From Lentilactobacillus sp. Marseille-Q4993 (GTDB taxonomy: Bacteria; Bacillota; Bacilli; Lactobacillales; Lactobacillaceae), in NCBI RefSeq assembly GCF_951230165.1, contig NZ_CATNVB010000019.1:1-44425 (forward strand): 44,425 bases of DNA, given 5' to 3'. The notes under the pieces are model-generated. The model had not been told where the DNA came from, searched no databases, and saw only the letters and a program-made list of their open reading frames with translations. Shown one piece after another: positions 14,310 to 38,173 of this stretch (position 1 is its first letter; every line of letters begins with the position of its first letter). A program made the position numbers and the translations under genes.

Positions 14310-14348
14310 ATTCATTTGCAACACAATACGTAATCATCTTTTAAGCAT
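14310..14348 (+). repeat. 39-bp direct repeat, copy 2 (joined to element A)
   Basis: This is the second copy of the direct repeat. Its last 18 bp are the left arm of the complete element A. Confidence 0.85.
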
Positions 14349-14477
14349 ACTATTGGAACGCCGTGGACATCGGTTTGAACTTCTCAAAGACAGAGAATTT
14401 CAAACTCGAGTCTTATTGTAGGGAGTAAACTCCCAACAATAACGACACGGCTGAATAGTATGCTTTTTTGATGATTA
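14331..14477 (+). repeat. Structured palindromic element, copy A (complete)
   Basis: This 147-bp sequence folds as a branched structure. P1 is TAATCATC / GATGATTA and, after a T4/T4 internal loop, AAGCATACTATT / AATAGTATGCTT. P2 is GCCGTG / CACGGC. Inside P2 are two hairpins: P3 (GTTTGAACTTCTC / GAGAATTTCAAAC) and P4 (TTATTGTAGGGAG / CTCCCAACAATAA, loop TAAA). GGAAC lies between P1 and P2. Copies B and C share the core and architecture but have different stem sequences. It could act as an RNA or as a DNA hairpin. It lies between two convergent genes. I do not recognise the family. Confidence 0.85.
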
Positions 14478-14552
14478 CTCTGGCCACGTTTGTTCTTACA
14501 TATATGTATAGTCCAGGATTAAAAATTGATACGTAAACCAACAGTCAATATA

Positions 14553-14578
14553 AGATAATGACTATCAGCCATGAAATG
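14553..14578 (-). repeat. Fragment of the structured element (3' end, copy D)
   Basis: The sequence around CTATCAGCCATGAAAT matches the 3' end of copy B (minus orientation) at about 22 of 26 positions. The rest of this copy is lost. Confidence 0.6.
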
Positions 14579-14624
14579 TAGTAGTAGCATGACTGATCCA
14601 CCAAAAAAAGCAAAACTCAAACCC

Positions 14625-14772
14625 AATAATCACAAAAAGATAACACCTATCAGCCATGAAATTATTGTTAGTGGTTTACCACTTACAATAAGGCTAGTAT
14701 TTGAAACTCTTTCATAGAGGTTCAAATCTATGCCCATGGCGTTCCATAGGTGTTATCAAAAAAGTGATTATT
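14625..14772 (-). repeat. Structured palindromic element, copy B (complete)
   Basis: This 148-bp copy is on the minus strand. Read in that sense it has P1 AATAATCAC / GTGATTATT and GATAACACCTAT / ATAGGTGTTATC around a T6/T5 internal loop, GGAAC, P2 GCCATG / CATGGC, P3 ATTTGAACCTCT / AGAGTTTCAAAT and P4 TTATTGTAAGTGG / CCACTAACAATAA. Compared with copy A, most differences in P1, P2, P3 and P4 occur in pairs that keep base pairing. Confidence 0.85.
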
Positions 14773-14797
14773 TGGTTGCTAATTTTGGATTCTTAAC

Positions 14798-14848
14798 AAT
14801 CTCAAACCTTTGTCCACCACGTTCTAATAGCATGTCAAAGAGTGATTA
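14798..14848 (-). repeat. Fragment of the structured element (left half, copy E)
   Basis: Read on the minus strand, TAATCAC, an inner arm ending TGCTATT, then GAACGTGGTGGACA and GGTTTGA match the left half of the element. The right half is absent. Confidence 0.65.
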
Positions 14849-14860
14849 CACTACTTACTC

Positions 14861-14886
14861 ATAGGTGTTATCAAAAAGTGAGTATT
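14861..14886 (-). repeat. Fragment of the structured element (left arm, copy F)
   Basis: ATAGGTGTTATCAAAAAGTG repeats the left outer arm of copy B (14748 region) almost exactly, without the core. Confidence 0.6.
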
Positions 14887-14919
14887 GATCTGGCTAAACG
14901 CATTTTTTATAAGGCAATC

Positions 14920-14944
14920 AATAGCATGTTAAAAAATGATTATT
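14920..14944 (-). repeat. Fragment of the structured element (left arm, copy G)
   Basis: AATAGCATGTTAAAAAATGA resembles the left arm of fragment E (AATAGCATGTCAAAGAGTGA), again without the core. Confidence 0.5.
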
Positions 14945-15007
14945 AGTTTGCATTAATTTATTTTTATTAGATAATTCTATTTTAAGTCACCCTTAAGCTA
15001 ACCTCCC

Positions 15008-15013
15008 TATACT
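15008..15013 (+). promoter_or_regulatory. Possible -10 for the 19-codon ORF transcript
   Basis: TATACT lies 36 bp before the start of the small ORF. The -35 region is weak, so this is tentative. Confidence 0.3.
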
Positions 15014-15048
15014 ACAGTTATTCAATAAGCAAAGGAGGCGCCACCACA

Positions 15049-15108
15049 ATGAAAAGCCAACCACAATTCATTACAGAAAGGATGACCGCCACACCACTAA
15101 ACAACTAA
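15049..15108 (+). CDS. Possible 19-residue small protein or leader peptide
   Basis: A 19-codon ORF (MKSQPQFITERMTATPLNN) starts 9 bp after a perfect AAAGGAGG ribosome-binding site. It is followed after ~70 bp by a strong hairpin terminator, and no larger gene follows on the same strand before it. The arrangement suggests a short transcript of about 200 nt with one tiny ORF. It is hydrophilic with no membrane segment. It matches no family I know. It may be a small protein or the translated part of a small RNA. Confidence 0.45.
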   Translation: MKSQPQFITERMTATPLNN

Positions 15109-15180
15109 TAACTGGCAATCAATTTCATTAACCAAACAACTCCTAATAATCTAACTACATCTATAAAAATTATAATTAGT

Positions 15181-15219
15181 AAAAAATGGATCAGCTTCTG
15201 TGAGGGCTGGTCCATTTTT
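15181..15219. terminator. Hairpin terminator, both orientations
   Basis: AAAAATGGATCAGC pairs with GCTGGTCCATTTTT (one G-T wobble). A/T runs flank both sides, so it can end the small plus-strand transcript and minus-strand transcripts from pyrD. Confidence 0.8.
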
Positions 15220-15337
15220 AAAACTCTTTTCTCGCTTTTTCTTCATCATATTCGTCGGCATTTGATTCATGACCAAGATTCTTCATTTCTTCCTCAATGG
15301 TTGACTTACGAAATACAAAAAAAGATCCAGATTTCAC
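15218..15337 (-). CDS. Possible 39-residue hypothetical protein
   Basis: A minus-strand ORF from a GTG at 15337 encodes a charged, acidic C-terminal half (NADEYDEEKARKEF). It lies 32 bp after pyrD and stops at the terminator hairpin. No proper ribosome-binding site precedes the GTG; an internal ATG would leave only 22 residues. It may be the remnant of a longer gene. Family unknown. Confidence 0.25.
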   Translation of the reverse strand: MKSGSFFVFRKSTIEEEMKNLGHESNADEYDEEKARKEF

Positions 15338-15369
15338 CCTTCGAAATCCAAATCTCTCTTTTCTACCTA

Positions 15370-16314
15370 TTATAGAGTCTTTAGTTTGCCTCTGAATTCA
15401 TCCAGTGACTTGTAACCCTTTTGGTCCATAATTTCTTCAAGTTCGCGACTGATTCGTTCGAAAATGGCTGGGCCTTCTGGGCCAAACGCAGTTCCGATTT
15501 GAACAAGGTCAGCACCACAGAGAACGTGTTCGAATACGTCCATTCCGCTCTTGATACCACCAGTACCGATAATGCCGATTTCTGGGTTCAAACGAAGGCG
15601 GAAAGCCCGAACGTTTGCAAGTGCAGTTGGCTTTACGTATTCTCCACCGATTCCACCGAAACCACCCTTAGGCTTGATGATAACTGCTTCGGTCTCTGGA
15701 TCGATAACCAAGCCGTTTCCGATTGAGTTGATTGAGTTAACGTAAGCAAGTGGGAACTTGTTCAATACGGCTGCAATTTGGTCAAATTGAGTAAGGTCAA
15801 AGTAAGGTGGCAACTTGATACCAAGGCGTTTGTTATAGAAACTAAATGCTTCAGTAAGTACTTGGTCAACGGCGTCAAAGTCGTAACCAACTTGAGGCTT
15901 ACCCTTAACGTTAGGGCATGAGAGGTTAAGTTCTACCAAGCCATCGAAGTCACTGGCTTGCAAACGGTGGAGCATTTCAATGTTTTCATCGATAGAAGTA
16001 CCGGCGATTGACATGATGATGTTGTTATTGCCAGCTTCTTGTTGTTTCATAACGTAATCTAAATAGTAATCAAAGCCGTGGTTTGGCAAGCCCATTGAGT
16101 TAATGCTTCCAAGGGGAAGGCCTTGCATCCGGGGACTTTCGTTTCCTTCACGAGGTTCGATTGTTGCACTCTTGGTGATGGCACCACCAGCAGATGAAAC
16201 CATGATCTTGTTAAGGTCAACGACTGATGAACAACGAACACCCGCTGCGTTCATCATTAAGTTATCAAAGTGAATTCCAGCTAATTCTGATTGTAAAGAT
16301 ACTTTAGTTTGCAT
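15370..16314 (-). CDS. pyrD: Dihydroorotate dehydrogenase, class 1A
   Basis: The 314-residue flavoenzyme oxidises dihydroorotate to orotate in pyrimidine synthesis. The catalytic Cys is in [13 protein letters not shown], the signature of class 1A enzymes, which are cytosolic homodimers using fumarate. FMN-binding GTGGIKSG and the GFGGIGGEY loop are visible. The start is the ATG at 16314 ([10 protein letters not shown]), inside the end of pyrE, behind AGGAGG; the open frame extends 69 codons further but that part is pyrE out of frame. It overlaps pyrE by 11 bp and is the last gene of the pyrFED unit. Confidence 0.93.
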
Positions 16315-16951
16315 TTGCTTCCTCCTGTTTTGTCCAATCCCAAGGTGCTTTGTGCCAAGTTGATAAGTAATCGAATTGTTCTTTGGTAAACTGACCTTCA
16401 TCGTAACCCTGTTTGATAACGTCTGAGTAGGTAAGTAGCGGATGAAGTTGCGTACCGGCTTCCTCAAAGTTCTTAGTTGAATCTGGGAACTCATAAGTGT
16501 AGATTGAGGCAACCCCATCAACCGTGTAACCAGCGTTGCGAACCGCGTCCACAGCCTTCAAAACACTACCACCGGTTGAAATCAAATCATCGATCAGGAC
16601 TACGTGGTCCGTGCCCTTAATGCGACCTTCAATTTGCTTTCCAGCCCCGTGATCCTTTGGCTTTGAGCGAACGTAGATGAGCGGCAATCCTAGTTTTTGA
16701 GCAACCCATGATGCGTGGGGAATTCCGGCAGTGGCAACCCCACCGATAACCGTTGCGTCTGGGTAGTTAGCCTTGATGACTTCTGCTAATCCCTCGGCAA
16801 TCATCTCCCGCAGGTCTGGAATTGAAATTGTCAGTCTGTAATCGGTGTAGATTGGAGCCAAGATTCCGCTGGCGTATCTAAATGGTTTGTTAAGGTTGAT
16901 GCTGATGATTTTGTTATCGATCAATGATTGAATAATCTTATCTTTTTGCAT
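16304..16951 (-). CDS. pyrE: Orotate phosphoribosyltransferase
   Basis: The 215-residue enzyme joins orotate and PRPP to form OMP. The PRPP-binding motif [13 protein letters not shown] is present, as are the N-terminal substrate region [20 protein letters not shown] and the flexible loop ([14 protein letters not shown]). It overlaps both neighbours (14 bp with the pyrF end, 11 bp with pyrD), indicating coupled translation. Confidence 0.95.
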
Positions 16952-17660
16952 TGTTCCACTCCTCTGACATTGTGTGATAGGCGGCTACTGGGTCGTCTGC
17001 TTTGATGATTGGCCGGCCGACTACTAGTGCGGTACTTCCAAACTGCGCCGCTTCAGCAGGGGTTGCGGTTCGCGATTGGTCATCCTTTGGATAGCCAGAA
17101 GGTCTAATTCCTGGAGTTACATACCAGAAGTCATCCCCAACTTGTTCGCGTAATGCCTTAACCTCAAGTGGCGACGTGATAACGCCGTCTGCGTTTGACC
17201 GCTTAGCTAGTTTGGCAAGGGCGACCACTTGGTCAACCATATCAAGCCGACTGTTCTGCTCATTTTTCAAAACTTCTTCGGTGATTGAAGTCAATTCCGT
17301 AACGGCAAGCAACTTAGGGGTTTGCACTCCGGCTTCTTCGCTACCTTCAATCAAGCCTTGTTTGGCAGCCTTTATCATCTCTGAACCACCGAGGGCGTGA
17401 ACTGTAACAAACGTTACACCGAGGCGGCCGATTTGGCGCATCCCACTTTTAACCGTGTTAGGAATATCGTGAAGTTTTAAATCAAGGAAGATGTCATATC
17501 CCCGGTCTAAAATGTCCCGCACGATTTGGGGACCCTCACCGTAAAACAATTCCATGCCGATTTTAACGGTTAGTTTGTCATCCTTTGGAAATTTGTCGAT
17601 CAGTTCAAACAAATCAGCGCGATCTGCAACGTCTAGCGAAACAATAAGTGGTCCTTGCAT
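16938..17660 (-). CDS. pyrF: Orotidine-5'-phosphate decarboxylase
   Basis: The 240-residue TIM-barrel enzyme decarboxylates OMP to UMP. The N-terminal MQGPLIVSLDVAD and the catalytic DLKLHDIPNTV (DxKxxD) are typical, as is the C-terminal phosphate-binding TPGIRPSG and VGRPI. The ATG at 17660 is chosen because GGAGG lies 6 bp upstream. It is the first gene of pyrFED and follows a PyrR-type attenuator. Confidence 0.95.
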   Translation of the reverse strand: MQGPLIVSLDVADRADLFELIDKFPKDDKLTVKIGMELFYGEGPQIVRDILDRGYDIFLDLKLHDIPNTVKSGMRQIGRLGVTFVTVHALGGSEMIKAAKQGLIEGSEEAGVQTPKLLAVTELTSITEEVLKNEQNSRLDMVDQVVALAKLAKRSNADGVITSPLEVKALREQVGDDFWYVTPGIRPSGYPKDDQSRTATPAEAAQFGSTALVVGRPIIKADDPVAAYHTMSEEWNNAKR

Positions 17661-17689
17661 TTCATACCTCCGAAAAGTGAGCATAAAAA

Positions 17690-17752
17690 AAGTCCGAGAA
17701 TTCAGCGCAGGCTACATTTGTTCAGTTGAACAAACTACCTCCGCATTATCAC
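17690..17752 (-). terminator. Attenuator terminator in the pyr leader
   Basis: On the minus strand GTCCG pairs with CGGAC across an inner stem (TTTGTTCA / TGAACAAA) and is followed by TTTTTTT, just before the pyrF ribosome-binding site. This is a Rho-independent terminator inside the leader. Confidence 0.8.
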
Positions 17753-17826
17753 GGACATTATTATTAACTCGTCCGCTTTTGGCTTCTCTGAACCAAATTA
17801 AAGCTTTGTATTTGATAATTACTTTA
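17753..17826 (-). promoter_or_regulatory. PyrR-binding leader of the pyr operon
   Basis: The minus strand holds TTTGGTT-CAGAGA-AGCCAAA (17778-17797), a hairpin with the CAGAGA loop seen in PyrR binding sites. GCGGAC downstream can pair with GTCCG of the terminator to form an antiterminator. In PyrR systems UMP-bound PyrR stabilises the hairpin and lets the terminator form. The elements are visible; the mechanism is inferred from the family. Confidence 0.75.
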
Positions 17827-17848
17827 TCACGATGACGGGAGTTGTCAA
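17821..17848 (-). promoter_or_regulatory. Promoter of pyrFED
   Basis: TTGACA (17843-17848) and TAAAGT (17821-17826) are separated by 16 bp on the minus strand, giving a leader of about 150 nt that carries the attenuator. Confidence 0.65.
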
Positions 17849-17931
17849 GATTTTTCGAAGATAACAATTTACGGATTTCTAGTTTTTTCAGTCCCTTTAT
17901 AGGAAACGACCTGATTTTTATTTTCGACCCC

Positions 17932-17960
17932 TTGTTTTTTATCGCCATTCGTGGAATAAT
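17932..17960 (+). promoter_or_regulatory. Possible promoter of the MFS gene at 18014
   Basis: TTGTTT (17932-17937), 17 bp, AATAAT (17955-17960). Confidence 0.4.
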
Positions 17961-17978
17961 CTACTTTAGCAAAAATAA

Positions 17979-17996
17979 AGAGTGCCCGTGAGCACT
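17979..17996 (+). promoter_or_regulatory. Small hairpin in the 5' leader of the MFS gene
   Basis: GAGTGC and GCACTC form a 6-bp stem with a CCGTGA loop, ending 4 bp before the TGGAGG ribosome-binding site. It may affect mRNA stability or initiation. No T-run follows. Confidence 0.4.
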
Positions 17997-18013
17997 CATT
18001 TGGAGGAACGAAA

Positions 18014-19246
18014 ATGGAAAATACTACTGTAAACACGCACACTCATGGCTTAACGACTAAGCAGAAATGGACGATTGCATCAACGAGTTCAGGCTTTGCT
18101 TTGGAAAACATGGATGTGCTTTTTCTTTCGTTTGCAATGAGTTCCATGATCGCTGACCTTCACCTAAGTGGTGGAGCTGCCGGCATGATTGGTTCAATTA
18201 CAAACCTGGGAATGCTCTTTGGCGGAATCTTATTTGGAATCATCGGTGACAAGTTTGGGCGGGTCAAAACATTTACCTACACCATCTTCATCTTCGCATT
18301 CGCAACCGCAATGATGGCTGTTGCCAACAACATCTTCATCGTGTACGCATTACGGTTCCTTGCCGGAATCGGTGCTGGTGGTGAGTACGGCGTTGGAATT
18401 TCACTGATTGCCGAATCATTTCCTAAGAAACAAATCGGAAAGATGACTTCAGTTGCTGCAGTTGGTGGTCAAATCGGGGCCATCCTCGCAGCGGTTATCG
18501 CAGCCTTCGTTCTCCCAAGATTCGGCTGGCACGGATTGTTCCTATTTGGAATCGTTCCAGTTGCCCTCGCCTTCATCGTTCGTCGCAACTTAACGGAAAC
18601 TACTGAATACGTTGAAGCCAAGAAAACGGAAACCGAATCTACTGGAAAAGCCGTGTTCGAATACATGTTTAGCACTCCAAAGGTAGCCTACCAAAGTTTA
18701 GCATTGATGATCATGACCACCGTTCAAATCGCTGGTTACTTTGGCTTGATGAACTGGTTACCAATCATCGTTCAAAAACAACTTGGTCTTAACGTGTCTG
18801 GTTCATCTCTCTGGATGATTGCCACTATCGTTGGTATGAGCCTAGGAATGATGACATTTGGCTCAATCCTCGACTTCTTCGGTCCAAGAAGAGCATTTGG
18901 AATCTTCCTAATTGCATCAGCATTGATGGTGTTCACGATTACCCTTGCCCATAACACCGTTACCTTACTTATCATCGGTGCCATCGTCGGATTCTTCTCA
19001 AACGGTATGTTTGGTGGTTACGGGGCGGTTATCTCCCGCCTCTACCCAACTGAGATTCGGTCAACCGCAAACAACATCATCGTGAACGTTGGCCGCGCCG
19101 TTGGTGGTTTCTCATCAGTAGTAATCGGAATCTTGATGGACCACTACTCACTGACAGTTGTAATGGCATTCCTTTCAATCCTGTACATCATCAGTTTTGT
19201 AGTAATGATTACATTGCCAGGAATGAAAAAGTTAGCAAATGAATAG
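18014..19246 (+). CDS. MFS transporter (sugar/organic-acid type)
   Basis: This 410-residue, 12-TM facilitator carries the loop 2-3 motif GIIGDKFGRVK and, in TM4-5, RFLAGIGAGGEYGVG, which resemble the sugar/aromatic-acid:H+ symporter group. Loop 8-9 has SILDFFGPRRA. GGAGG precedes the ATG. It is monocistronic: a leader hairpin upstream and a bidirectional terminator right after. No enzyme gene nearby indicates the substrate, so it stays unassigned. Confidence 0.85.
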   Translation: MENTTVNTHTHGLTTKQKWTIASTSSGFALENMDVLFLSFAMSSMIADLHLSGGAAGMIGSITNLGMLFGGILFGIIGDKFGRVKTFTYTIFIFAFATAMMAVANNIFIVYALRFLAGIGAGGEYGVGISLIAESFPKKQIGKMTSVAAVGGQIGAILAAVIAAFVLPRFGWHGLFLFGIVPVALAFIVRRNLTETTEYVEAKKTETESTGKAVFEYMFSTPKVAYQSLALMIMTTVQIAGYFGLMNWLPIIVQKQLGLNVSGSSLWMIATIVGMSLGMMTFGSILDFFGPRRAFGIFLIASALMVFTITLAHNTVTLLIIGAIVGFFSNGMFGGYGAVISRLYPTEIRSTANNIIVNVGRAVGGFSSVVIGILMDHYSLTVVMAFLSILYIISFVVMITLPGMKKLANE

Positions 19247-19250
19247 ACAC

Positions 19251-19293
19251 AAAAAGAGTTATCGTCGAAAATCAGACGGTAACTCTTTTTTTT
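19251..19293. terminator. Bidirectional terminator between MFS and ABC exporter genes
   Basis: AAAAAGAGTTATCGTC pairs with GACGGTAACTCTTTTT, then TTT. It serves the plus-strand MFS gene and, with its A/T symmetry, the convergent ABC exporter gene. Confidence 0.9.
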
Positions 19294-21067
19294 ACTTATA
19301 CTCATCCGCTTGAATATTGTAATAATCCCGATAATATTCATTTGATTTCATCAGATTTTCGTGAGTATCAAAACCAACTATTTTGCCATGATCCAACACC
19401 AATACCCGATCCGCCAGTTTTACAGCAGCCATTCTGTGAGTGATAAAAAATGTCGTCTTATCTTGCGCCATACTGATAAATCGTTTATAAATATCAGCTT
19501 CACTTTTGGGATCCAGCGATGCCGTTGGCTCATCAAGAATCAAAATCTTTGAATCCGCAAAAAACGCCCTTGAAATAGCCAACTTTTGCCATTGACCTCC
19601 CGACAAATCAATTCCATTGGTAAATTGTTTTCCCAACTGGGTCTTTAACGTTAATCCCTTCGATTTGAAATCGTCATAGAAGCCCCCATTTTGCATAGCT
19701 AATTCTATTCTTTCTGTATCGCCACTCTTTTTAATATCTCCTAATGAAATACTATCTCGAATAGTCAAAAAGAATTTGGAATAATCCTGGAAAACGGTAC
19801 CTAAATTCGAACGAAAATTATGAATATCATACTCTTTTATATTTTGATTATTAACTGAGATGCTCCCATTGTTTGGATCATAAAATCGCATAAGCAATTT
19901 AACTAGGGTCGATTTTCCAGAGCCATTTTCCCCAACAATGGCAATTTTTTCACCACCCCGAACCACAAAATCAACATTTTTAAGAGCTAATTCCTTTGAA
20001 TTTGGATATGAAAAGTTAATGTCTTTAAAAGCTATCGTTTGAATGCTGTCAGGAAATGTCATCTTCCCAGTGAAGTCAGAATCTTCTTCAATTGAAATGA
20101 ATGTAAAGTACTTTTTCATATATAAAAGGGTGTCTAATAGTAGGCTTGAGCTTTCAATCAACGAGTAAACACTATTGGCAGTTGCCGTTATGGTAGAAAC
20201 AAAGACCAGAAAAATTCCGGCGGATAGTTTCCCATCTCTTATGGAAACAACTACCCATACTAAACTCCCGAAACTGATCAACGTGCTGACCAAAAGCAGA
20301 ATTAAGGACACCCACATCTGTTTAACTCGGGTGTCAGTAACTTTCCGGTGCATACTAAGATATGTACTGTGATACAGATTGATAAAGTAATCAAACATAT
20401 TGAACAATCTGACTTCTTTTGCATCCCTTGAAGTCAGCAAAACCTCGCTATAATACTGTGCTTTTCTTGCGTCAGGACTTCTGGTAACCATTGTTTCAAA
20501 CGAATCTTGCTGAATTTTATAACTAACCAAACTCTGTGGAATAATAGCCAAAAGGACTAACAGGCCAATTAGCGGATTATATTTTGATAGTAGAAACACC
20601 ATCGAAATAACCGTTATCGCTTCCCGAATCACACTTATTCCAAAGACAATCAAATTAACTGGTCGCCATGAAGCCTCTGAACTAATTATCTGCAATTGAT
20701 CGTAAAAATCCGCATTTTCAAATAGCTCAAGTCCTTGAACTGACTTTGATTTATTCATCAATCTGATATTGACGAAGGCGATTAACTTATCTGTTAAAAC
20801 CCCTTGCACAGAAGTATTTACAGGGATAGTTGCGGCTGACAAAAAGAATGTTATTCCCCAAAATGTTAGTAGCGTTACCGATAACTGTTTTTTTAGTAAC
20901 GAGTCAATTATCATTTGGGATATCTGAATTAATACCGCTGGAGACAGAGCTTGTATCGGAATTAAAAAAAGCAGTAAGGTACTACTGCTTCTAGATGATT
21001 TCCAAAAGAGGCCAAAGCTTTTAAAGTAAAGCGATATGTATTCACGAAAATTAGTCAAGGCTTTCAT
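19292..21067 (-). CDS. ABC exporter, fused permease and ATPase
   Basis: The 591-residue protein has an N-terminal six-helix exporter domain (~25-310) and a C-terminal ATPase with Walker A GENGSGKST (379-387), signature LSGGQ (~495), Walker B ILILDEP and the switch His in FITHRMA. There is no C39 peptidase domain, so it does not process double-glycine leaders itself. It starts 3 bp after the FecR-like gene behind GGAGG, and the two share one promoter. Related fused exporters move peptides, lipids or drugs, often in bacteriocin or RiPP loci; no precursor peptide or modifying enzyme is seen here. The pair is AT-rich relative to its surroundings, consistent with transfer. Substrate unknown. Confidence 0.88.
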   Translation of the reverse strand: MKALTNFREYISLYFKSFGLFWKSSRSSSTLLLFLIPIQALSPAVLIQISQMIIDSLLKKQLSVTLLTFWGITFFLSAATIPVNTSVQGVLTDKLIAFVNIRLMNKSKSVQGLELFENADFYDQLQIISSEASWRPVNLIVFGISVIREAITVISMVFLLSKYNPLIGLLVLLAIIPQSLVSYKIQQDSFETMVTRSPDARKAQYYSEVLLTSRDAKEVRLFNMFDYFINLYHSTYLSMHRKVTDTRVKQMWVSLILLLVSTLISFGSLVWVVVSIRDGKLSAGIFLVFVSTITATANSVYSLIESSSLLLDTLLYMKKYFTFISIEEDSDFTGKMTFPDSIQTIAFKDINFSYPNSKELALKNVDFVVRGGEKIAIVGENGSGKSTLVKLLMRFYDPNNGSISVNNQNIKEYDIHNFRSNLGTVFQDYSKFFLTIRDSISLGDIKKSGDTERIELAMQNGGFYDDFKSKGLTLKTQLGKQFTNGIDLSGGQWQKLAISRAFFADSKILILDEPTASLDPKSEADIYKRFISMAQDKTTFFITHRMAAVKLADRVLVLDHGKIVGFDTHENLMKSNEYYRDYYNIQADEYK

Positions 21068-21070
21068 AAG

Positions 21071-21727
21071 CTACCTCCAAAAGACCGGAGAAACCCAATC
21101 TGTATATAGTTCCGTGATTTCATCATCAGTCAAATCATGTTTACTTAATGTTGTATACTTTTTTCGCATAGGCATAGAATCGTCGAAGGATAATTCAAGC
21201 TTAGTGTATTGGTCAGCATGATCAATAAAGAACTGTCTACCGTTTTCGTCAAACTCAACTATGTTAATGTCATAATTCAACACATAATAACAATCTATCG
21301 TATCAGTTACAGGCTTTATTAAGAGATTAGTATGACCCGGAACATAACAGCTAGTTCTATACTTACCACCACCCAGTACTTGTTGCCCTTCATCGTTACT
21401 TATAAAAACATTCCCGTAATAAACTGGACATTCGCCAGCAATTGTTTTTTTAATAGAAAAGCTCGAGTGTTTTCCTAATCTAAATACAACTCCGGTACTC
21501 GACCGTATTTCAACACGACCATTTCCCGTCCTTATTTCATAGTCCATCCCAATAAGCGTTCCTGATGTCAATTCAGTCATATATCCTAAAGGAGAAATTG
21601 AGCAAACATCATCCCCTGACAAATATGTAACCACATAGCTACAGGTTGACGGCAAGCCTTCTTGGCGAATTAGATAACTTTCATTATCATCAAAAAAAGT
21701 ACCACTTTGTTTAATCATATTATCCAT
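21071..21727 (-). CDS. Unknown protein with a FecR-like beta domain, partner of the ABC exporter
   Basis: I do not recognise this 218-residue protein with certainty. Its middle part (TSGTLIGMDYEIRTGNGRVE, then IRSSTGVVFRLGKHSSFSI) resembles the FecR domain pattern GTxIxxGDxIRTGxxGxAEL-xxxDGSxLRLGxxS. It has no signal peptide or membrane segment. Five Cys residues are spread along the chain. Start: the ATG at 21727 behind AGGAGG. It is cotranscribed with the ABC exporter and precedes it, so it may sense or deliver the exported molecule or build it. FecR-like domains are normally found in Gram-negative sigma-regulator systems or surface proteins, so a cytoplasmic version here is odd. Confidence 0.6.
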   Translation of the reverse strand: MDNMIKQSGTFFDDNESYLIRQEGLPSTCSYVVTYLSGDDVCSISPLGYMTELTSGTLIGMDYEIRTGNGRVEIRSSTGVVFRLGKHSSFSIKKTIAGECPVYYGNVFISNDEGQQVLGGGKYRTSCYVPGHTNLLIKPVTDTIDCYYVLNYDINIVEFDENGRQFFIDHADQYTKLELSFDDSMPMRKKYTTLSKHDLTDDEITELYTDWVSPVFWR

Positions 21728-21750
21728 AACTATACGCCTCCTATAACATT

Positions 21751-21777
21751 AATCTAATTTTAATGTAATTAGATTAA
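21751..21777. promoter_or_regulatory. Palindromic operator before the FecR-like gene
   Basis: TAATCTAATT and AATTAGATTA are perfect 10-bp inverted arms, 7 bp apart, located just downstream of the -10 element. A dimeric repressor encoded elsewhere probably binds here. Confidence 0.65.
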
Positions 21778-21781
21778 CAGT

Positions 21782-21810
21782 AAGATAGTCCCGTTTAATG
21801 CGTTTGTCAA
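21782..21810 (-). promoter_or_regulatory. Promoter of the FecR-like/ABC exporter pair
   Basis: TTGACA (21805-21810), 17 bp, TATCTT (21782-21787) on the minus strand. Confidence 0.75.
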
Positions 21811-21907
21811 CAGAGATTCTAAAAAATAAAATAACATCCTTTTTTAATTTCATTAAAAAATACAGTTTTATACCTCGTTAGCTATTCGTTTTTCACCTGA
21901 CGAAGAA

Positions 21908-21913
21908 TATAAT
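21908..21913 (+). promoter_or_regulatory. -10 element of the aldo/keto reductase gene
   Basis: TATAAT lies 38 bp before the ATG; the -35 is weak. Confidence 0.45.
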
Positions 21914-21950
21914 AAAACCAACCCTATTAAAAAAGGAAGCGGATATCCCG

Positions 21951-22916: not shown

Positions 22917-22946
22917 TCAACTAGTAAAACAGTAGCCAAAAATATT

Positions 22947-23009
22947 GCTTCGGGCGTGAGACGACAAAAACATCTTCATATGCTTTTTGTCTCACGGCCG
23001 AGCTTTTTT
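22947..23009 (+). terminator. Terminator of the aldo/keto reductase gene
   Basis: GCTTCGGGCGTGAGAC pairs with GTCTCACGGCCGAGC (one bulge), an inner AAAAA/TTTTT extends it, and TTTTTT follows. Confidence 0.8.
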
Positions 23010-23114: not shown

Positions 23115-23142
23115 AGAAGGCAAAACGGGCGAAAATAACAAG

Positions 23143-29348: not shown

Positions 29349-29929
29349 TATATTTCTCCTTCTTCAACCAATTGTTTGACTACTTCTGGATATAGTTTGT
29401 GCTCGACAGCGTGAATACGGGCTTCAAGCTGGTCGAGATGGTCATCTTTATGCACCGGCACTTCCCGTTGGGCGATAATTTTACCCGAATCGATGCCGGA
29501 GTCGACCCAGTGAACCGTAACGCCTGTAACGGGGACTCCCGCTTCAAACGCATCTTCGATTCCGTGACGCCCGGGGAAGTTTGGCAACAGGGCAGGATGG
29601 ATATTGATCGTCTTGCCCTCATACTTAGACAACAACGTTTTGCCCAAAATTCTCATGTATCCGGCTAAAATAATAAAATCTATGTGTTTGGCTGCTAATT
29701 GTTCAAGAATTACTGCTTCAGCCGCAGCTTTGTTTGGATACTCCTTAAAGTTAATTACGAAAGTATCCACGTTAAATTTTGCGGCTCGGTTCAAAACATT
29801 TGCATCTTTGTGATCACAAACGAGTAATTCAATTGAAACTGGCAAGTTTTCCCGTTCAAAACTTTCAGCCAGCGCTGTGAAGTTCGTTCCCTCACCTGAC
29901 GCAAAGATTGCAATTCTTTTTTTATTCAT
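29348..29929 (-). CDS. purN: Phosphoribosylglycinamide formyltransferase
   Basis: The 193-residue enzyme transfers a formyl group from 10-formyl-THF to [16 protein letters not shown], the catalytic Asn-His-Asp set in [14 protein letters not shown] and [17 protein letters not shown] are present. Its start directly abuts the purM stop codon (TAAATG). Confidence 0.97.
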
Positions 29930-30937
29930 TTAATGATCTCCATTAATAATAACTTTTTGACTACCCTGAGTAATGCTGCCAATGACTTGAGCGTGATTGT
30001 CAGTGTTAGCGAGCTTGGCGAGGACTTCATCGACCTTTTCTGGTTTGACAACCAGTACGAACCCAATTCCAAGGTTAAACGTCCGTTCCATATCGGTTGC
30101 GGATAACCCACCTAACCGCTTTAATTCGGTCATGATAGCTGGAATCTTCCACTTACTACTGTCGACTTCAGCATTCAAACCAGTTGGTAAGATTCGAGCC
30201 ACGTTATCGAGCAAGCCACCACCGGTAATATGAGCAGCACTGACCACTAGCTTATCCTGAATCAATGGCAACACGCTGTTGACATAAATCCTAGTTGGCC
30301 TGAGAAGTTCCTCACCGTACGAGTGACCATCAATAATATCAGTTAGTTTGACGTCATTTTGATTAAACAAAATATCGCGAACCAAACTGTAACCGTTAGA
30401 ATGCAATCCATTGGAATCAATTCCAATCAAGACATCCCCTTCAGCCACGTCGTTCTTGTCTAACAGGGCACTCCGATCAGCAATTCCAACCGCAAACCCT
30501 GCCAAATCGTAATGGCCATTACCATACATGGCAGGCATTTCAGCCGTTTCACCGCCAATGAGCTTAGCCCCAGCCTGCTTAGTTCCTTCGACCACACCTG
30601 CAATCACATCGCTAGCGACAATCGTTTTCAGTGCTCCAGTGCCAAGATAATCGAGAAAGAACAGTGGCTTAGCTCCCTGAGCAAGAACGTCATTCACACA
30701 CATTGCGACTAAATCGATTCCAATCGTATTGTGTTTGTTAGCCTGATTTGCAACTAACAGCTTAGTTCCCACGCCATCGGTCCCAGAAACTAGGACTGGA
30801 TCAGGAGTCATAAAGTCTTTGAGAGGTAACATCCCGCCAAAGGCACCTAAGCCCGAATCGTGGGTCATTTCTTTGATGGAATCAACTAACTGTTCACCCG
30901 CATCAATGTCGACTCCTGCCTTCTTGTATGCATCCAT
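29930..30937 (-). CDS. purM: Phosphoribosylformylglycinamidine cyclo-ligase (AIR synthetase)
   Basis: The 335-residue enzyme closes the imidazole ring to give AIR. The motifs are LVSGTDGVGTKL, GGETAEMPAMY, HSNGYSLVR and HITGGGLLDNVARIL. It follows purF by 4 bp, behind CGAGGTAAG. Confidence 0.96.
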   Translation of the reverse strand: MDAYKKAGVDIDAGEQLVDSIKEMTHDSGLGAFGGMLPLKDFMTPDPVLVSGTDGVGTKLLVANQANKHNTIGIDLVAMCVNDVLAQGAKPLFFLDYLGTGALKTIVASDVIAGVVEGTKQAGAKLIGGETAEMPAMYGNGHYDLAGFAVGIADRSALLDKNDVAEGDVLIGIDSNGLHSNGYSLVRDILFNQNDVKLTDIIDGHSYGEELLRPTRIYVNSVLPLIQDKLVVSAAHITGGGLLDNVARILPTGLNAEVDSSKWKIPAIMTELKRLGGLSATDMERTFNLGIGFVLVVKPEKVDEVLAKLANTDNHAQVIGSITQGSQKVIINGDH

Positions 30938-30941
30938 TTAC

Positions 30942-32381
30942 TTACCTCGTTTCAAGTAATCTTGCCTGTTCAGCATCATATTCAGCTTGATAATCATAAA
31001 GTGGGGTTGGGTACTTACCATCGAAGTAAGCAACGCAGAGACCCTGGTTAGGAGCATCTGAATCAAGGTTGACCGCCTTGATCAGCGAATCGGTACTAAG
31101 AAAGCCGAGACTGTCGGCCCCAAAGATATCTCGCATTTCTTCAACCGTATGGTTAGCAGCGATTAGTTCCCGAGTTGTTTGGATATCAATCCCATAGAAG
31201 CATGGGTATCTCAGTGCTGGTGAAGCAATTCTTAGATGAACTTCAAGGGCACCAGCGTCCTTGAGCAACTTAACGATTCGCTTGCTGGTTGTACCCCGAA
31301 CGATTGAATCATCAACAAGGACGATTCGTTTGCCAGCAACAACCCCCTTAACGGCTGAGAGTTTCATGTTGACTCCCTGTTCCCGTAACTCCTGGGTTGG
31401 TTGGATAAACGTTCTGGCTGAATACTGGTTCTTGATCAAACCCATTTCATAGGGGAGACCCGAAGCCTCGGCATAACCCGTGGCCGCTGATAGTGAGGAG
31501 TTTGGTACTCCAATCACCATATCGGCATCGACGGGTTGTTCCTTTGCCAGAAATTCGCCCATTCGTTTACGTGCTGAGTGAACGTTAACGCCGTAGATAT
31601 CTGAATCTGGGCGGGCAAAGTAGATAAATTCCATTGAGCAGATAGCTAACTGGGTATTGTCCGTATATGAATCCACGGTGATGCCACTATCATCAATTTT
31701 AATCAGTTGACCAGGTTGAACGTCGAATCTAAATTCAGCACCAACTGCATCCAATGCACAGGTCTCACTAGTAACAACATAACCGCCATCAGGAAGCTGG
31801 CCAACTACAAGTGGTCGGAACCCATTTGGATCAAGAGCTGCATAGATACGGTCATTAGTCATTACCAAGTAAGCAAATCCACCTTTTACGGTGTTGAGGG
31901 CCTCTTTGACTTGGTCATCGAGGTTTGGTTTACGACTTAGGCGAATCAAGTGCATCAAGTTTTCAGTATCTGAACTTGAGTGGTAAATAGCACCGTTAGC
32001 TTCAAGTTGTTTTCTAATCGTGATTGCGTTAGTTAAATTACCGTTATGGGCAATCGCAAACTGGGAATCGCTAAAATTGAAGGGTAGTGGTTGGATGTTT
32101 TCCAACAAGTTACTTCCAGCAGTTGAGTAGCGAACGTGGCCAATTGCGGCATCGCCAGGTAGATCCTTCACATCATTTTGAGAAGTGAAGACATCAGTTA
32201 ACAGGCCAAAGCCGCGTTTTGTCTTAAGTTCGCCGTTATTATTAGCGGTAATACCAGCTCCTTCTTGGCCTCGATGTTGAAGGGCAAACAGGCCAACGTA
32301 TGTGAGTTGAGCGGCATCCTTAGAACCCCAGATGCCAAACACACCACATTCTTCATTTAAACTTTTTACTTCAGTTTGCAT
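30942..32381 (-). CDS. purF: Amidophosphoribosyltransferase
   Basis: The first committed enzyme of the pathway (479 residues) makes phosphoribosylamine from PRPP and glutamine. The ATG at 32381 gives [11 protein letters not shown] before CGVFGIWG, i.e. a propeptide that is cut so Cys becomes the N-terminal nucleophile. The PRPP motif [14 protein letters not shown] is in the C-terminal half. The C-terminal [13 protein letters not shown] has only one Cys where Fe-S-type enzymes have CxxC, so the cluster may be absent. It overlaps the purL end by 16 bp. Confidence 0.96.
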
Positions 32382-34585
32382 TCTAAGGCTCCCTTCCATG
32401 TTGCAAGAGCATCGCTAACCTTCATATCAACAACATCATCGTTCGTACGAATAAAGAGTTGGTCACTGTCGCAGACCTTACCAATCAGAGTGGCCTTACC
32501 GGCTGCTAGTTTTTCAAATTCATCCTTATGTTCAGGTGAAACGGAAACAACGAACCGTGATTGCGTCTCTGAGAATAGCTCAGCGCCAGTCATATCAAGC
32601 TTAGCCTCAATTCCCAAACCATTACCGAATGTACTTTCAGCAAGGGTGACAATTAAGCCACCTTCCGAAACATCATGGGCGCTTTGAATCAAGCCATTCT
32701 TGATTGCGGTCAAAACTAACTTTTGGTTTTTATATTCAGTGTGGAGGTCGAAGTCAAACAACTGACCGTTGATGGCTCCAGTTTGCATCTTTTGAATTTC
32801 TGAACCGTTAAAGTCAACATTAGTGTCACCAATAACGTAAACTAAGTCACCGTCGTGTTTGAAATCTTGGGTGGTAATGTGATCAAGTGATTCAATCAAA
32901 CCAACCATTCCAACCATTGGCGTTGGGTAAATAGCAACGTCATCGAACTCATTGTTAAGTGATACGTTACCGGAGATAACTGGGGTATCAAAGAGCTCGC
33001 AAGCATCAGTCATTCCCATAGCCGCTTGATCCATTTCGTAGAACTGGTCGGTCTTTTCAGGATTACCAAAGTTCAAGCAATCAGTGATTCCTACTGGAAC
33101 CCCACCTGAAGCAACGACGTTTCTAGCGGCTTCGGCAACCGCAATTTGACCACCAATGCGGGGATTCAAGTAGAGGTAGCGACCATTAACGTCAGTTGTG
33201 ATTGCAAGCGCCTTGTTGGTACCGCGAACACGAAGAACGGCGGCATCTGAACCAGGGGCAACCACGGTGTTAGTTTGAACTTGAGTATCATATGTTTCGT
33301 AAATGCTGTGTTTAGAAGCAATTGTTGGTTGGGAGAGAATTTCGAGAACCGTTTCATTAAGGTTCTTGATTTGAGGAACGTACTGGCGAGAAGTCATTGA
33401 CTTTAGTCGTTCTGGTTCTTCTGATTCACGATGGTATACGGGAGCATCAGCAGCAAGTGAGTCCACTGGCACATCGGCAACCACTTCACCATGATGGAGA
33501 AGTTTGTAGTTGTGGCCCTCAGTAACGTGGCCAATCACAACGGCTTCAACACCATAATCAGCGAATACATCCAATACTTCTTGTTCACTACCAGCCTTAA
33601 CACAGAGAAGCATTCTTTCTTGGGATTCTGATAGCATCAATTCAAATGCAGTCATCCCTTCTTCACGTTGGGGAACTAAATCAAGATCTAATTCCATTCC
33701 GTAACCACCAGCTTTTGAACCCATTTCAGCTGATGAGGATACAAGACCAGCAGCTCCCATATCCTGAATTCCAACCAAAGCATCGGCGTGGTTATTAATA
33801 ACGTCGAGGCAGGCTTCCATTACAAGTTTTTCAGTGAATGGATCACCAACCTGTACGGCTGACCGTTGACTTTCATGTTCTGAATCGAATTGCGCTGAGG
33901 CGAATGATGCCCCGTTGATACCATCCCGACCAGTCTTAGCCCCAACATAGATAATACTGTTGCCGACACCGGCAGCCTTACCAACTTTAATCTTATCGAG
34001 GTCCATCAAACCAACGCACATTACGTTGACCAATGGGTTGTGTTCGTAGGCGTCATCAAAGGCGATATCACCACCAACGGTTGGCACCCCGATACAGTTT
34101 CCGTATGCTGAAATTCCAGCAACGATTTCTGAAATAAAGTAACTATCGGCTTGAGTCTTAGGTTCACCGAATCGCAAACTATCAAGACAAGCAATTGGCC
34201 GAGCTCCCATTGAGAAGATATCCCGAAGAATGCCACCAACTCCAGTGGTTGCCCCTTGAAATGGCTCAACGGCTGAGGGGTGATTATGGCTTTCGGCCTT
34301 GAACACGATTCCCTTGCCATCACCAATATCAATAATTCCAGCACCCTCACCAGGTCCCTGAACAACCCGGTCTGAGTTAGAATAGAACTTCTTCAACACT
34401 GGTTTGGAATTCTTATAAGAACAATGTTCACTCCACATCCCTGAATAAAGACCAATTTCAGTATAGTTAGGTTCGCGACCCAACACCTTTTCGCTGATCA
34501 GTTGGTATTCATAGTCTGAAAGGCCCATGTTTTTATAGATTTTATCGTCTTTAATTGCGGTTGGCGTTACTTCGTTATTATTCAT
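32366..34585 (-). CDS. purL: FGAM synthetase, large subunit (small-type PurL)
   Basis: The 739-residue protein is the short PurL that needs PurQ and PurS. It converts FGAR to FGAM with ATP and ammonia. Visible motifs: [42 protein letters not shown] and HDVSEGGLI. The ATG at 34585, behind AGAGGAA and overlapping the purQ stop (ATGAATAA), is preferred to a TTG at 34591. Confidence 0.96.
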
Positions 34586-35261
34586 AAACAATTCCTCTGC
34601 TTACCATGCTGTTAATAATCGACTCAAACATTCCCTTACCATCGGCTGAACCAAGTAGTTCTTCGACGGCTCTTTCTGGGTGGGGCATCATACCAAGAAC
34701 GTTACCGGCCTTGTTGATGATCCCGGCAATGTTTTCAACACTCCCATTTGGGTTATCTCGGTATTTAAATACGATTTGGTTATTTGCTTCCAAGTCCTTC
34801 AAGGTTTCCTGGTCGCAGAAGTAGTTACCCTCACCGTGGGCGACTGGTAACGTAATTGTTTGACCACTTTCATATTGGTTAGTAAAAACGGTGTCGTTGT
34901 TGTTTACGTATAATTCGACTGGTTTGCAAACAAACTTAGCTGAGGTGTTTTTTTGAAGAACGCCTGGTAGTAATCCTGCTTCGGTTAGAATTTGGAAACC
35001 GTTACAGATACCAAGAACCGGTTTGCCAGTATCAGCAAACTCACCTAAAGCCTTGATGATTGGTGAGAAACGGGCGATGGCCCCGCCCCGAAGGTAATCA
35101 CCGTATGAGAACCCGCCGGGAACTAGCGCAGCATCATAATCATCAAGCGAATCCTTTTTGAATGATACTAATTCAGCTGTTTCACCCATCACATCATTGA
35201 TGGCGTGGTATAGATCCATCTCACAATTTGATCCGGGAAAACTCAAAATTGCAAATTTCAC
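34578..35261 (-). CDS. purQ: FGAM synthetase, glutaminase subunit
   Basis: The 227-residue class I glutamine amidotransferase supplies ammonia to PurL. The nucleophile Cys is in VLGICNGFQ, the catalytic His/Glu in [19 protein letters not shown] is typical of PurQ. It overlaps purS by 4 bp (ATGA). Confidence 0.97.
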
Positions 35262-35509
35262 TTGGCTGCCTCCAGTTCTTCAATCTCGTAACGGTAACTT
35301 TCCATGTTGACGTTAGCCAACAGTTTGTCACAGATTTCGTCGATTTCATGTTCAACGTTAGTGCCGTCGATTTTGACTTCAAAGTACTTACCAAGGGTCA
35401 AGTCCTTAACATCGTCATAACCCATTCGAACGACTGCATCCTTAATGGCTTCCGCCTCTGGATTCAAAATTGATTGTTTGTAAGTTACATAGACCTTTGC
35501 TAAATACAT
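35258..35509 (-). CDS. purS: FGAM synthetase, small subunit
   Basis: The 83-residue PurS ([27 protein letters not shown]) bridges PurL and PurQ in the complex. GAGGAGG precedes the ATG. It sits between purC and purQ, as in B. subtilis. Confidence 0.95.
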
Positions 35510-35511
35510 AA

Positions 35512-36240
35512 TTAAGCCTCCTCAGCTTTCTCTAAACGAGTCAAAATTTCTTCATATACGGGAACTAATTCGCCAAGCCCTTTACGGAATACGTCCTTAT
35601 CAAGGGACTTCTTGGTGTCGCGGTCAATCAACCGACAACTGTCTGGTGAGATTTCATCAGCGAGGATAACCTTTCCATCACCATCTACACCAAACTCAAC
35701 CTTGAAATCAACCAAGTCAATATTCATATCAGCGAAGATTGCCTTTAACCGGTCGTTGACCTTGAGTGCAGTCTGCTTCATGAAGTCCATCTGGGCCGGA
35801 GTAGCAACGCCAAGCGCTTCAGCTTGGGAATCGTTGATGAACGGATCATCAAGCTCATCACTCTTATAGAAGAATTCAGTGACTGGTTTTTCAAACTTCA
35901 TCAGGTGTTCTGCAGCAAATTTCCGTTCAAAACTTCCTGAAGCCATGTTTCTAACAACTGTTTCAAGGGGAATGATTTTAACCCGCTTTACAAGTTGATT
36001 GTTTGAATCAAGTTGTTTGATGAAATGGTTTTCGATTCCGTGAGCGGCAAGGTCGCTGAAAATAATGCTTGAAATTCGACAGTTAGTTTCGCCCTTTCCT
36101 TTCATCTGAACCTTTTTCTTACCGTTAAATGCAGTAACTTGATCCATGTAGTGAACCCAAACAGTTTCTGGGTCAGTGGTTGCGAACATTTCCTTTGCTT
36201 TACCTTGGTACATTAAGTCAGTCTTTGTGATTTCTGTCAT
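35512..36240 (-). CDS. purC: SAICAR synthase
   Basis: The 242-residue enzyme couples CAIR with aspartate. The N-terminal YQGKAKEMFATTDPE, the central RNMASGSFERKF and ILADEISPDSCRLID are family motifs. AAGGAG precedes the ATG. It starts 12 bp after purK. Confidence 0.97.
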   Translation of the reverse strand: MTEITKTDLMYQGKAKEMFATTDPETVWVHYMDQVTAFNGKKKVQMKGKGETNCRISSIIFSDLAAHGIENHFIKQLDSNNQLVKRVKIIPLETVVRNMASGSFERKFAAEHLMKFEKPVTEFFYKSDELDDPFINDSQAEALGVATPAQMDFMKQTALKVNDRLKAIFADMNIDLVDFKVEFGVDGDGKVILADEISPDSCRLIDRDTKKSLDKDVFRKGLGELVPVYEEILTRLEKAEEA

Positions 36241-36251
36241 GATGAACTCCT

Positions 36252-37385
36252 TTAGTTTTCGCCGGTTAACATTGCAGTTGATTTAAGTAGTTGGTCGATA
36301 TCATCACCGAGAACCGTAACGTGCCCCATTTTTCGTTGGGGTCTGATCTCAGCTTTACCATAATCGTGGAAATGCCAGTCTGGAGCTTTTGTTAGCTGTT
36401 CACGGGCTAGCGTTAAATCGGTTCCCAGTAGATTTCTCATTACTGCTGGTTGGTTCAAAGTAACGTCAGGGATTGGCAACCCACAGATACTACGAATGTG
36501 AGCTTCAAACTGAGAAACGTTGCAGGCCTCAATTGTGTAATGGCCTGAATTATGAGGCCGTGGAGCCAATTCATTTACAACAACGTGTTCGTCATCGATG
36601 ACGAATAGTTCGACGCCAAGGACTCCGTACAAGTTTAGTTTGTCAGCAATCACATTTCCGATATGGTTTGCGAGTTGATGAACCTTGGCTGAAAATCTGC
36701 CTGGAGCAATAGTGGTATGAAGAATGTGGTTCTTGTGGATATTTTCGACTAGGGGAAAGACGATTGTCTTGCCGTTACGGTCGCGGGTGATCATGATTGA
36801 AGCTTCCGCCTTAAATTGCTTGCGGGCTTCTAAAATACAAGTTGTCTTGGTGTAAAGTTCAGCAGCAGCGTCAAAGTCGGCTTCGGAATTAACATCAAAT
36901 TGACCGTGACCATCGTAGCCACCGGTTGAGGTTTTGAGGATTGCGGGCATTCCTACTGCTTTAACTGCCGCTTCAAAGCTGGCTTTATCAGTTACTAAGG
37001 CAAAATCCGTTACCGGAATTCCAACATCCTTTAGAAAACTCTTTTCGTTGAACCGATCGCCAGTGATTCGCAGTAATTCAGTTCCTTGAGGAATTTCAAC
37101 AAACTCACTCGCTTCTTTCAAGGTGTTTTCGTCGACGTTCTCAAACTCATATGTGAGAACATCAGCCTTCTTTGCGAGGTCTAAAACCGCTTCTTCGTCG
37201 TCGTACTCAGCTACGATTTGAAAATCAGAAACTTGACCAGCTGGGGCAGAAGGGGTTGGATCCAATACTCCAACTTTGTATCCCATTGCCTTAGCCGAGA
37301 GGGCCATCATTTGCCCAAGTTGCCCACCACCAACGATCCCAATGGTTGCTGGTGGTAATATTTGCTTAATTGAGGCGGCTTTCAC
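36252..37385 (-). CDS. purK: N5-carboxyaminoimidazole ribonucleotide synthase
   Basis: The ATP-grasp enzyme (377 residues) carboxylates AIR to N5-CAIR using ATP and bicarbonate. TIGIVGGGQLGQMMA, GGYDGHGQ and ELAPRPHNSGHYTIEAC are diagnostic. The start is taken as the GTG at 37385, behind GAGGAGG; it overlaps purE by 20 bp. The open frame from 37403 has no better site. Confidence 0.95.
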   Translation of the reverse strand: MKAASIKQILPPATIGIVGGGQLGQMMALSAKAMGYKVGVLDPTPSAPAGQVSDFQIVAEYDDEEAVLDLAKKADVLTYEFENVDENTLKEASEFVEIPQGTELLRITGDRFNEKSFLKDVGIPVTDFALVTDKASFEAAVKAVGMPAILKTSTGGYDGHGQFDVNSEADFDAAAELYTKTTCILEARKQFKAEASIMITRDRNGKTIVFPLVENIHKNHILHTTIAPGRFSAKVHQLANHIGNVIADKLNLYGVLGVELFVIDDEHVVVNELAPRPHNSGHYTIEACNVSQFEAHIRSICGLPIPDVTLNQPAVMRNLLGTDLTLAREQLTKAPDWHFHDYGKAEIRPQRKMGHVTVLGDDIDQLLKSTAMLTGEN

Positions 37386-37854
37386 TTTGCTTTGCCTCCT
37401 CACGTTGTTTTTCCTTAAATGCGGAAAGTTCGGATTCTACGTTCTTATCGTTCGTTGCTAAAATTTGAGCTGCTAGTAAAGCGGCGTTCTTTGCACCAGC
37501 GTCACCAATGCTAACGGTTGCTACGGGAGCCCCAAACGGCATTTGGACGATTGAAAGTAGTGAGTCCATTCCGTTTAATGTTCGGGTTTTAATTGGTACC
37601 CCAATCACTGGTAATGTAGTGTTCGCAGCAAGCATTCCAGGTAAGTGAGCGGCACCACCAGCGCCAGCAATGATGACATTAAGGCCGTTATCACGGGCAT
37701 TCTTGGAGAATTCGGTGAGTTCATCCGGCATCCGGTGTGCGGAGATAACGCGCTTTTCGTAACCAATCTTTAGACTATCCAAAACTGCGCAGGTTCGCTG
37801 CATGGTATCCCAGTCAGATACTGATCCCATCGCAATTCCAACTTGTATTGTCAT
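37366..37854 (-). CDS. purE: N5-CAIR mutase, catalytic subunit
   Basis: The 162-residue class I PurE rearranges N5-CAIR to CAIR. VGIAMGSVSDWDTM, SAHRMPDEL and AGAGGAAHLPGMLAA carry the active-site residues, including the conserved His. GAGGTG lies 8 bp before the ATG at 37854; a longer frame to 37869 lacks a site. First gene of the pur operon. Confidence 0.96.
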   Translation of the reverse strand: MTIQVGIAMGSVSDWDTMQRTCAVLDSLKIGYEKRVISAHRMPDELTEFSKNARDNGLNVIIAGAGGAAHLPGMLAANTTLPVIGVPIKTRTLNGMDSLLSIVQMPFGAPVATVSIGDAGAKNAALLAAQILATNDKNVESELSAFKEKQREEAKQSESRLN

Positions 37855-37886
37855 TGATTTACACCTCAATTTTTATTGGTGATTTA

Positions 37887-37915
37887 ATAATAATTAACAT
37901 TACAGTGAAAGTCAA
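37887..37915 (-). promoter_or_regulatory. Promoter of the pur operon
   Basis: TTGACT (37910-37915), 17 bp, TATTAT (37887-37892) on the minus strand, 33 bp before the purE start codon. Confidence 0.8.
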
Positions 37916-37920
37916 TACCA

Positions 37921-37933
37921 ATCGTTCGGATTT
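37921..37933 (-). promoter_or_regulatory. PurBox (PurR site) 1
   Basis: The minus strand AAATCCGAACGAT matches the PurBox consensus AWWWCCGAACWWT at 12 of 13 positions. In lactic acid bacteria PurR bound here activates pur genes when PRPP is high. Confidence 0.75.
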
Positions 37934-37970
37934 TTAATATTTTACTGAATAATTACTATGTAAAGTTTAT

Positions 37971-37983
37971 ATAGTTCGTGTTT
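37971..37983 (-). promoter_or_regulatory. PurBox-like site 2 (degenerate)
   Basis: AAACACGAACTAT matches the consensus at 11 of 13 positions, in the same orientation and 50 bp upstream of site 1. Confidence 0.4.
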
Positions 37984-38022
37984 TACTATTGATTATTAGT
38001 GATATCGGACATGGGGACACGA

Positions 38023-38173
38023 GGTAACCATTTATCAGCAACACTAATGGAACGCAGTGGGCACAGCTTTGAACTTTTCAAAAAGCGAAAATTTCAAAGT
38101 CAGGCCTTATCGTAATGAGTGAACTCATAACGATAACCTCACTGCTGATTAGTGTTGCTCTATAATGGTTACC
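38023..38173 (+). repeat. Structured palindromic element, copy C (complete)
   Basis: This 151-bp copy lies between the pur promoter region and the Dps-like gene. P1: GGTAACCATT / AATGGTTACC and AGCAACACTAAT / ATTAGTGTTGCT around a 4/4 internal loop. GGAAC follows, then P2 GCAGTG / CACTGC, P3 CTTTGAACTTTTC / GAAAATTTCAAAG and P4 TTATCGTAATGAG / CTCATAACGATAA. The pairing survives many paired changes against copies A and B. The sequence 38174-38390 beside it shows no gene. Confidence 0.85.

Follow-up and report, generated by a model that had tools for sequence, protein, structure and literature searches.

ERIC, NEMIS/Correia, EFAR and bcr1 elements are palindromic mobile repeats, and ERIC and NEMIS repeats act as RNA from either strand. 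Integron attC sites, which are folded at the DNA level, preserve structure over sequence and retain certain unpaired bases. A role in single-stranded DNA is considered for the covarying STAXI motif by its authors (PMC2864571). The window analyzed here, a 44,425-nt stretch of DNA from Lentilactobacillus sp. Marseille-Q4993, had been predicted to contain three branched palindromic elements of about 150 nt, and both direct reading of the sequence and a covariance model confirm that all three are real, lie where they had been placed and fold around a three-way junction (Table 1). The copies match the model at E values of 7e-40 to 5e-37, and at E ≤ 1 the model detects no others of full length in the window.

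Table 1. Features of the palindromic modules and their surroundings in the window
Feature	Position	Strand	Basis
Full hairpin, copy 1	14329..14480	+	covariance model and fold
Copy 1, P0	14330-14338 paired with 14470-14478	+	fold
Copy 1, P1	14343-14354 paired with 14454-14465	+	fold
Copy 1, GGAAC loop	14355-14359, opposite TG at 14452-14453	+	fold
Copy 1, P2	14360-14365 paired with 14446-14451	+	fold
Copy 1, P3	14366-14412	+	fold
Copy 1, P4	14413-14442	+	fold
Full hairpin, copy 2, convergent partner of copy 1 with 143 bp between	14624..14772	-	covariance model
Full hairpin, copy 3, between purE (minus) and a ferritin-like gene (minus)	38023..38174	+	covariance model
Direct repeat (46 nt) of the 5' arm side, its units 91% identical and starting 60 nt apart, the second running into copy 1	14243..14348	+	
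Degenerate 5'-arm repeats outward (5') of copy 2, one being AGAACGTGGTGGACA	14800..14951	-	partly by eye
Fragment resembling (79%) the 3' arm side of copy 2, lying in the pair's middle	14535..14577	-	
Probable composite, pair plus outer repeats (presumed extent)	14243..14951	.	

Each module runs from an outer stem, P0, through a small internal loop, a 12-bp P1, a GGAAC/TG loop and a 6-bp P2 to a three-way junction bearing the hairpins P3 and P4. Folded as single-stranded DNA, copies 1, 2 and 3 reach -39.9, -36.8 and -39.0 kcal/mol (z of -10.1, -11.0 and -10.7), values that none of 200 shuffles of each copy equaled. The P2 stem sequences are as the original prediction had given them, and the copies carry no evident gene, as it had also stated; the internal loop that it reported as conserved in P1 is present in all three, but not its symmetry, the P0/P1 loop measuring 4/4, 6/5 and 4/4 nt in the folds of copies 1, 2 and 3, so that copy 2 is asymmetric. 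The compensatory change that it saw is genuine and extensive: among eight copies from the same genome, 96.0% of 455 cells are paired and 34 of 57 pairs have changed on both sides, against 16.6 ± 2.6 in shuffles, none of 500 being as high. Slid control structures leave 34 to 45% of cells paired with 1 to 6 two-sided pairs, a comparison that is tilted towards the true structure: the MAFFT alignment was structure-blind, but the structure came from the fold of one of its rows. Of 148 copies from other genomes, 135 retain the GGAAC, 142 have a C.T mismatch within P3 and 137 an A.A mismatch within P4; the pattern used to find copies fixed GGAACG and the C of C.T, so the first two counts are partly selected, and the A.A lies outside the pattern.

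The covariance model uncovered further homologues both in the same genome, where 16 copies score at E ≤ 1e-16 and 12 of these have no convergent partner within 1.5 kb, and in other Lactobacillaceae. In the genus sample, 3 of 24 genomes match at E ≤ 0.01 (16 copies in the genome of the window, 3 in genome G001 and 2 weak ones in a third, G015); in the family sample, 117 of 397 Lactobacillaceae genomes, from 15 of 40 genera, match at E ≤ 1e-4; and in the order sample, all 25 matching genomes among 395 belong to one family, identified as Lactobacillaceae through genome G279, which contains the L074 stretch of Lactiplantibacillus plantarum EGD-AQ4 at 100% identity. Named records with matches include members of Lapidilactobacillus, Companilactobacillus, Lactiplantibacillus, Levilactobacillus, Lacticaseibacillus, Schleiferilactobacillus, Secundilactobacillus and Liquorilactobacillus. 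The model was needed to reach these relatives, since one copy used in a DNA search of 60 relatives returned only the genome of origin. Partial matches occur on 26 plasmid records from two genera; plasmids searched with the window pair, and phages searched with the Lactiplantibacillus element described below, gave no match, and a single pattern match among viral contigs was discarded when the model failed to confirm it at E ≤ 1e-9. Rfam 15, applied at the gathering score to the window and its relatives, places nothing on the element, which agrees with the original view that it fitted no familiar class; four matches in one of the Rfam searches, all off the element, are to a tRNA, SRP RNA, a fluoride riboswitch and rli28. 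The last is a full-length match to this Listeria small RNA (RF01492, 50.7 bits, gathering 45) at L080:5565-5746 on the minus strand, between two composites of Lapidilactobacillus wuchangensis; rli28 was considered as a known relative of the element and rejected, as the element model scores that stretch as background.

Most copies in other genomes are arranged in pairs. With a convergent pair defined by less than 1.5 kb between copies, 108 of the 148 copies form 54 pairs and 40 are unpaired, the copies being distributed over 71 of 81 stretches; the minus-then-plus arrangement occurs within 1.5 kb only twice, each time between neighboring composites (L046 and L080). The middles of the pairs span 53 to 992 bp, and 51 of the 54 have no open reading frame of 70 codons, the longest frames in the other three being 155, 94 and 76. 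The ends are oriented the same way relative to the middle in all of 62 non-independent comparisons, and a swap of the hairpins relative to the middle was rejected on this agreement. Of 45 scored pairs, 18 have convergent, 24 codirectional and 3 divergent flanking genes, so that 42 adjoin at least one gene 3' end. In two Lapidilactobacillus stretches (L072 and L147), a second hairpin-like repeat lies in or beside the composites, in L072 as GCTCTTGTTCCGGAAGC ... GCTTCCAAAACAAGAGC.

The nature of the larger unit is clearest in Lactiplantibacillus, where an element of about 970 bp recurs with terminal inverted repeats of about 50 bp that start ACGCATTGTGCTAGTTA. This 17-mer, allowing up to two mismatches, occurs 69, 80, 42 and 7 times in four genomes, versus 0 to 3 times per strand for the reversed control. 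Twenty fetched stretches with facing termini, 401 to 1060 bp from terminus to terminus, all hold the module at E ≤ 0.01, and 14 hold two; exact 8-bp target duplications are present at 9 of the 20, against 1 of 380 mismatched pairings, and duplications agreeing at 7 or more of the 8 positions at 13, against 2.1% of mismatched pairings. Ten of 12 further stretches hold the module; among the stretches, L161 is an IS982 remnant, and L152 has facing termini 210 bp apart with no module between them, so the termini also occur without it, which counts against our main reading. The Lactiplantibacillus element, with its facing termini, modules and duplications, is a MITE-like transposon. When 49 of the 54 composites, 5 of these from Lactiplantibacillus, were searched without anchoring, the flanking repeats did not exceed background length, and outside the anchored Lactiplantibacillus set the transposon reading therefore rests on homology. 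No empty site on plasmid backbones was seen among the matches listed (40 per search). At the site orthologous to that of L074 (Lactiplantibacillus plantarum EGD-AQ4), genome G361 carries the element inverted (G361:C1:2949352-2951201 versus L074:481-2313), which either an inversion in place by way of the terminal repeats or two separate insertions would explain.

The first 17 to 20 or so terminal bases resemble those of IS982-family elements. An element in L165 has the same termini, with a 9-bp repeat, ATTTGTAAT, read by eye on both sides, and an IS982 transposase broken into two pieces (133.7 and 77.9 bits, cut-off 130); in L206, from genome G353, an open IS982 frame of 287 codons is flanked by termini that differ from the 20-base query at 5 and 2 positions. 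Counting partial matches too, IS982 is matched at E ≤ 1e-10 in 34 of the 117 genomes with a match to the element and in 41 of the 280 without one, an association that is weak evidence because the genomes are related, and 38 of the 397 genomes have a match above the curated cut-off. With IS982 in only 34 of the 117 element-positive genomes, it is not a general mover, and other or past movers must exist.

In the window, copies 1 and 2 lie between genes for an EamA transporter and a dihydroorotate dehydrogenase. Between the aligned blocks of these genes there are 57 bp in G001 and 1,164 bp in the window, so the insert is absent from G001, the identity of 71 to 76% being too low for the exact junction to be read. 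A search for inverted repeats revealed no terminal repeat beyond the hairpins of the pair, no target duplication was found for the window copies, no partner for copy 3 was found in the window, and the genome yielded no IS982-type transposase; for the window, the missing terminal repeat and IS982-type match count against our main reading, as do the 12 copies without a convergent partner among the 16 of the genome. Some copies have truncated repeats of their 5' arm or 5' half on the outside. By exact motif, outer half-copies accompany the 16 copies of this genome 4 times upstream on the same strand and nowhere else, and the 148 others twice upstream on the same strand, once upstream on the opposite strand and 5 times downstream on the opposite strand, so such an array is no general feature. 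At three loci of this genome (L009, L011 and L016), 5'-half repeats occur up to 260 nt beyond the element, on its 5' side; they form an 83-bp tandem in L011 and measure about 70 bp in L009. Window positions 15020-15370, which contain no open reading frame of 80 codons, show by eye a ribosome-site-like motif, AAAGGAGG, and a terminator-like hairpin.

We give a probability of about 60% to the reading, taken as a whole with its steps concerning mover, fold and role, that the palindromes are conserved structured-DNA modules of MITE-like transposons of the Lactobacillaceae. The departures from Watson-Crick pairing bear directly on it. The 7845 pair cells of the 148 copies from other genomes comprise 7245 Watson-Crick, 472 mismatched and 128 G.T cells, G.T thus making up 21% of the departures, and the 1071 cells of the 16 own-genome and 3 G001 copies comprise 1020, 47 and 4; alignment A5 was built against the model, and pair counts from it lean towards structure. 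In minimum-energy folds, G.U accounts for 3.6% of pairs in 167 elements versus 9.4% in 378 terminator-like hairpins from the same loci, 6.1% in 7 tRNAs and 11.8% in 100 shuffled elements. The rarity of G.T where GC/AT swaps are common in the stems, together with the retained A.A, argues that the fold is kept at the level of DNA or of both strands, and the A.A further argues that shape itself is selected. Pairing is kept on DNA or for both strands, partly through block exchange, and the matched arms suggest folded DNA rather than RNA. Of the fold in RNA or single-stranded DNA proposed in the original prediction, the paired change upholds the general case, whereas an RNA from one strand is opposed by the rarity of G.T. 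For the same reason we consider it very improbable that the copies are a free-standing family of structured non-coding RNA genes, which their strong covariation would fit; the inverted pairing, and the termini and target duplications in one genus, likewise point away from it.

The module could instead work as RNA from either strand, since insertion in both orientations would require both transcripts to fold and this alone would remove G.U. The two strands do fold about equally well (means of -71.2 and -74.0 kcal/mol over 167 copies), and the scored pairs lie predominantly beside gene 3' ends; however, C.T, A.A and GGAAC would all read differently from the opposite strand, but a single set, in the module's own orientation, is kept, and Rfam has no match, so we judge this explanation unlikely. 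Somewhat less likely again is passive matching, by which template switching or hairpin exchange copies an arm or swaps hairpins with no function involved. Stems and composite middle diverge at about equal rates (0.199 and 0.230 per nt in an example of 78 comparisons), and copies that are near-identical in their outer arms differ block by block in entire P3 and P4 hairpins, so part of the paired change was not stepwise; this block exchange counts against our main reading. Passive copying would, however, be expected to repair the A.A inside P4, which is kept, and changes at a divergence of ≤ 5% are mostly one-sided (66, versus 8 two-sided), with about 80% of changes being two-sided above 15%.

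Under the structured-DNA reading, the 150-nt units would belong, as modules, to small MITE-like transposons without coding capacity, each normally carrying two of them, inverted relative to each other, close to its ends; in Lactiplantibacillus the units lie inside the terminal inverted repeats. A trans-acting IS982 DDE transposase probably mobilizes the Lactiplantibacillus elements, to judge from their IS982-like termini. The pairing suggests a DNA fold for the module, whether a cruciform or a hairpin formed by either strand, and a structure-reading protein most likely binds it, thereby keeping the Watson-Crick pairing, the GGAAC/TG loop and the C.T and A.A mismatches. Least certain of these steps, the module may act on single-stranded DNA, for example at the replication fork, helping or timing movement of the element. 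The window copies would be related members in a genome whose copies are mostly unpaired and in which the search for an IS982 transposase was negative. Mobile structured repeat is thus the best of the three identities originally guessed, although the moving unit in Lactiplantibacillus is a larger element, mostly with two inverted palindromes; the third guess, that the element is a substrate of an unknown enzyme, may also hold. It is a more doubtful proposal that a putative Lactobacillaceae protein reads the three-way-junction DNA hairpin by its shape and a few unpaired bases, and that transposons with differing termini carry the module to be moved or licensed.

No published description of the element was found in the literature, judged from titles and the openings of abstracts, and a repeat family present in 117 of 397 sampled Lactobacillaceae genomes, and partly on plasmids, is accordingly without a name in Rfam or in those sources. 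It provides a large covariation set in which the rarity of G.T indicates DNA or both strands, covariation alone being no proof of RNA, and makes the use of folded DNA inside transposon ends open to test. Like IS-moved MITEs, here of the IS982 family, the Lactiplantibacillus element is short and multicopy, with terminal inverted repeats, 8-bp duplications and IS982-like termini; unlike them, it has large covarying three-way-junction hairpins about 100 bp inside its ends, and the module is common to several genera whereas the outer sequences that were read differ between genera. As dispersed, intergenic, stable palindromes, the copies resemble ERIC, NEMIS/Correia, EFAR and bcr1 repeats in general description. 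They recall integron attC sites in placing structure above sequence, in their kept unpaired bases and in a DNA-level fold, no cassette array having been noticed; if a structure-reading protein does bind the module, it would be a DNA-structure signal separate from attC sites and from IS200/IS605 ends. They share with STAXI a covarying motif with a possible single-stranded-DNA role but, going by description, are set apart from it, since STAXI consists mainly of repeated pseudoknots (PMC2864571).
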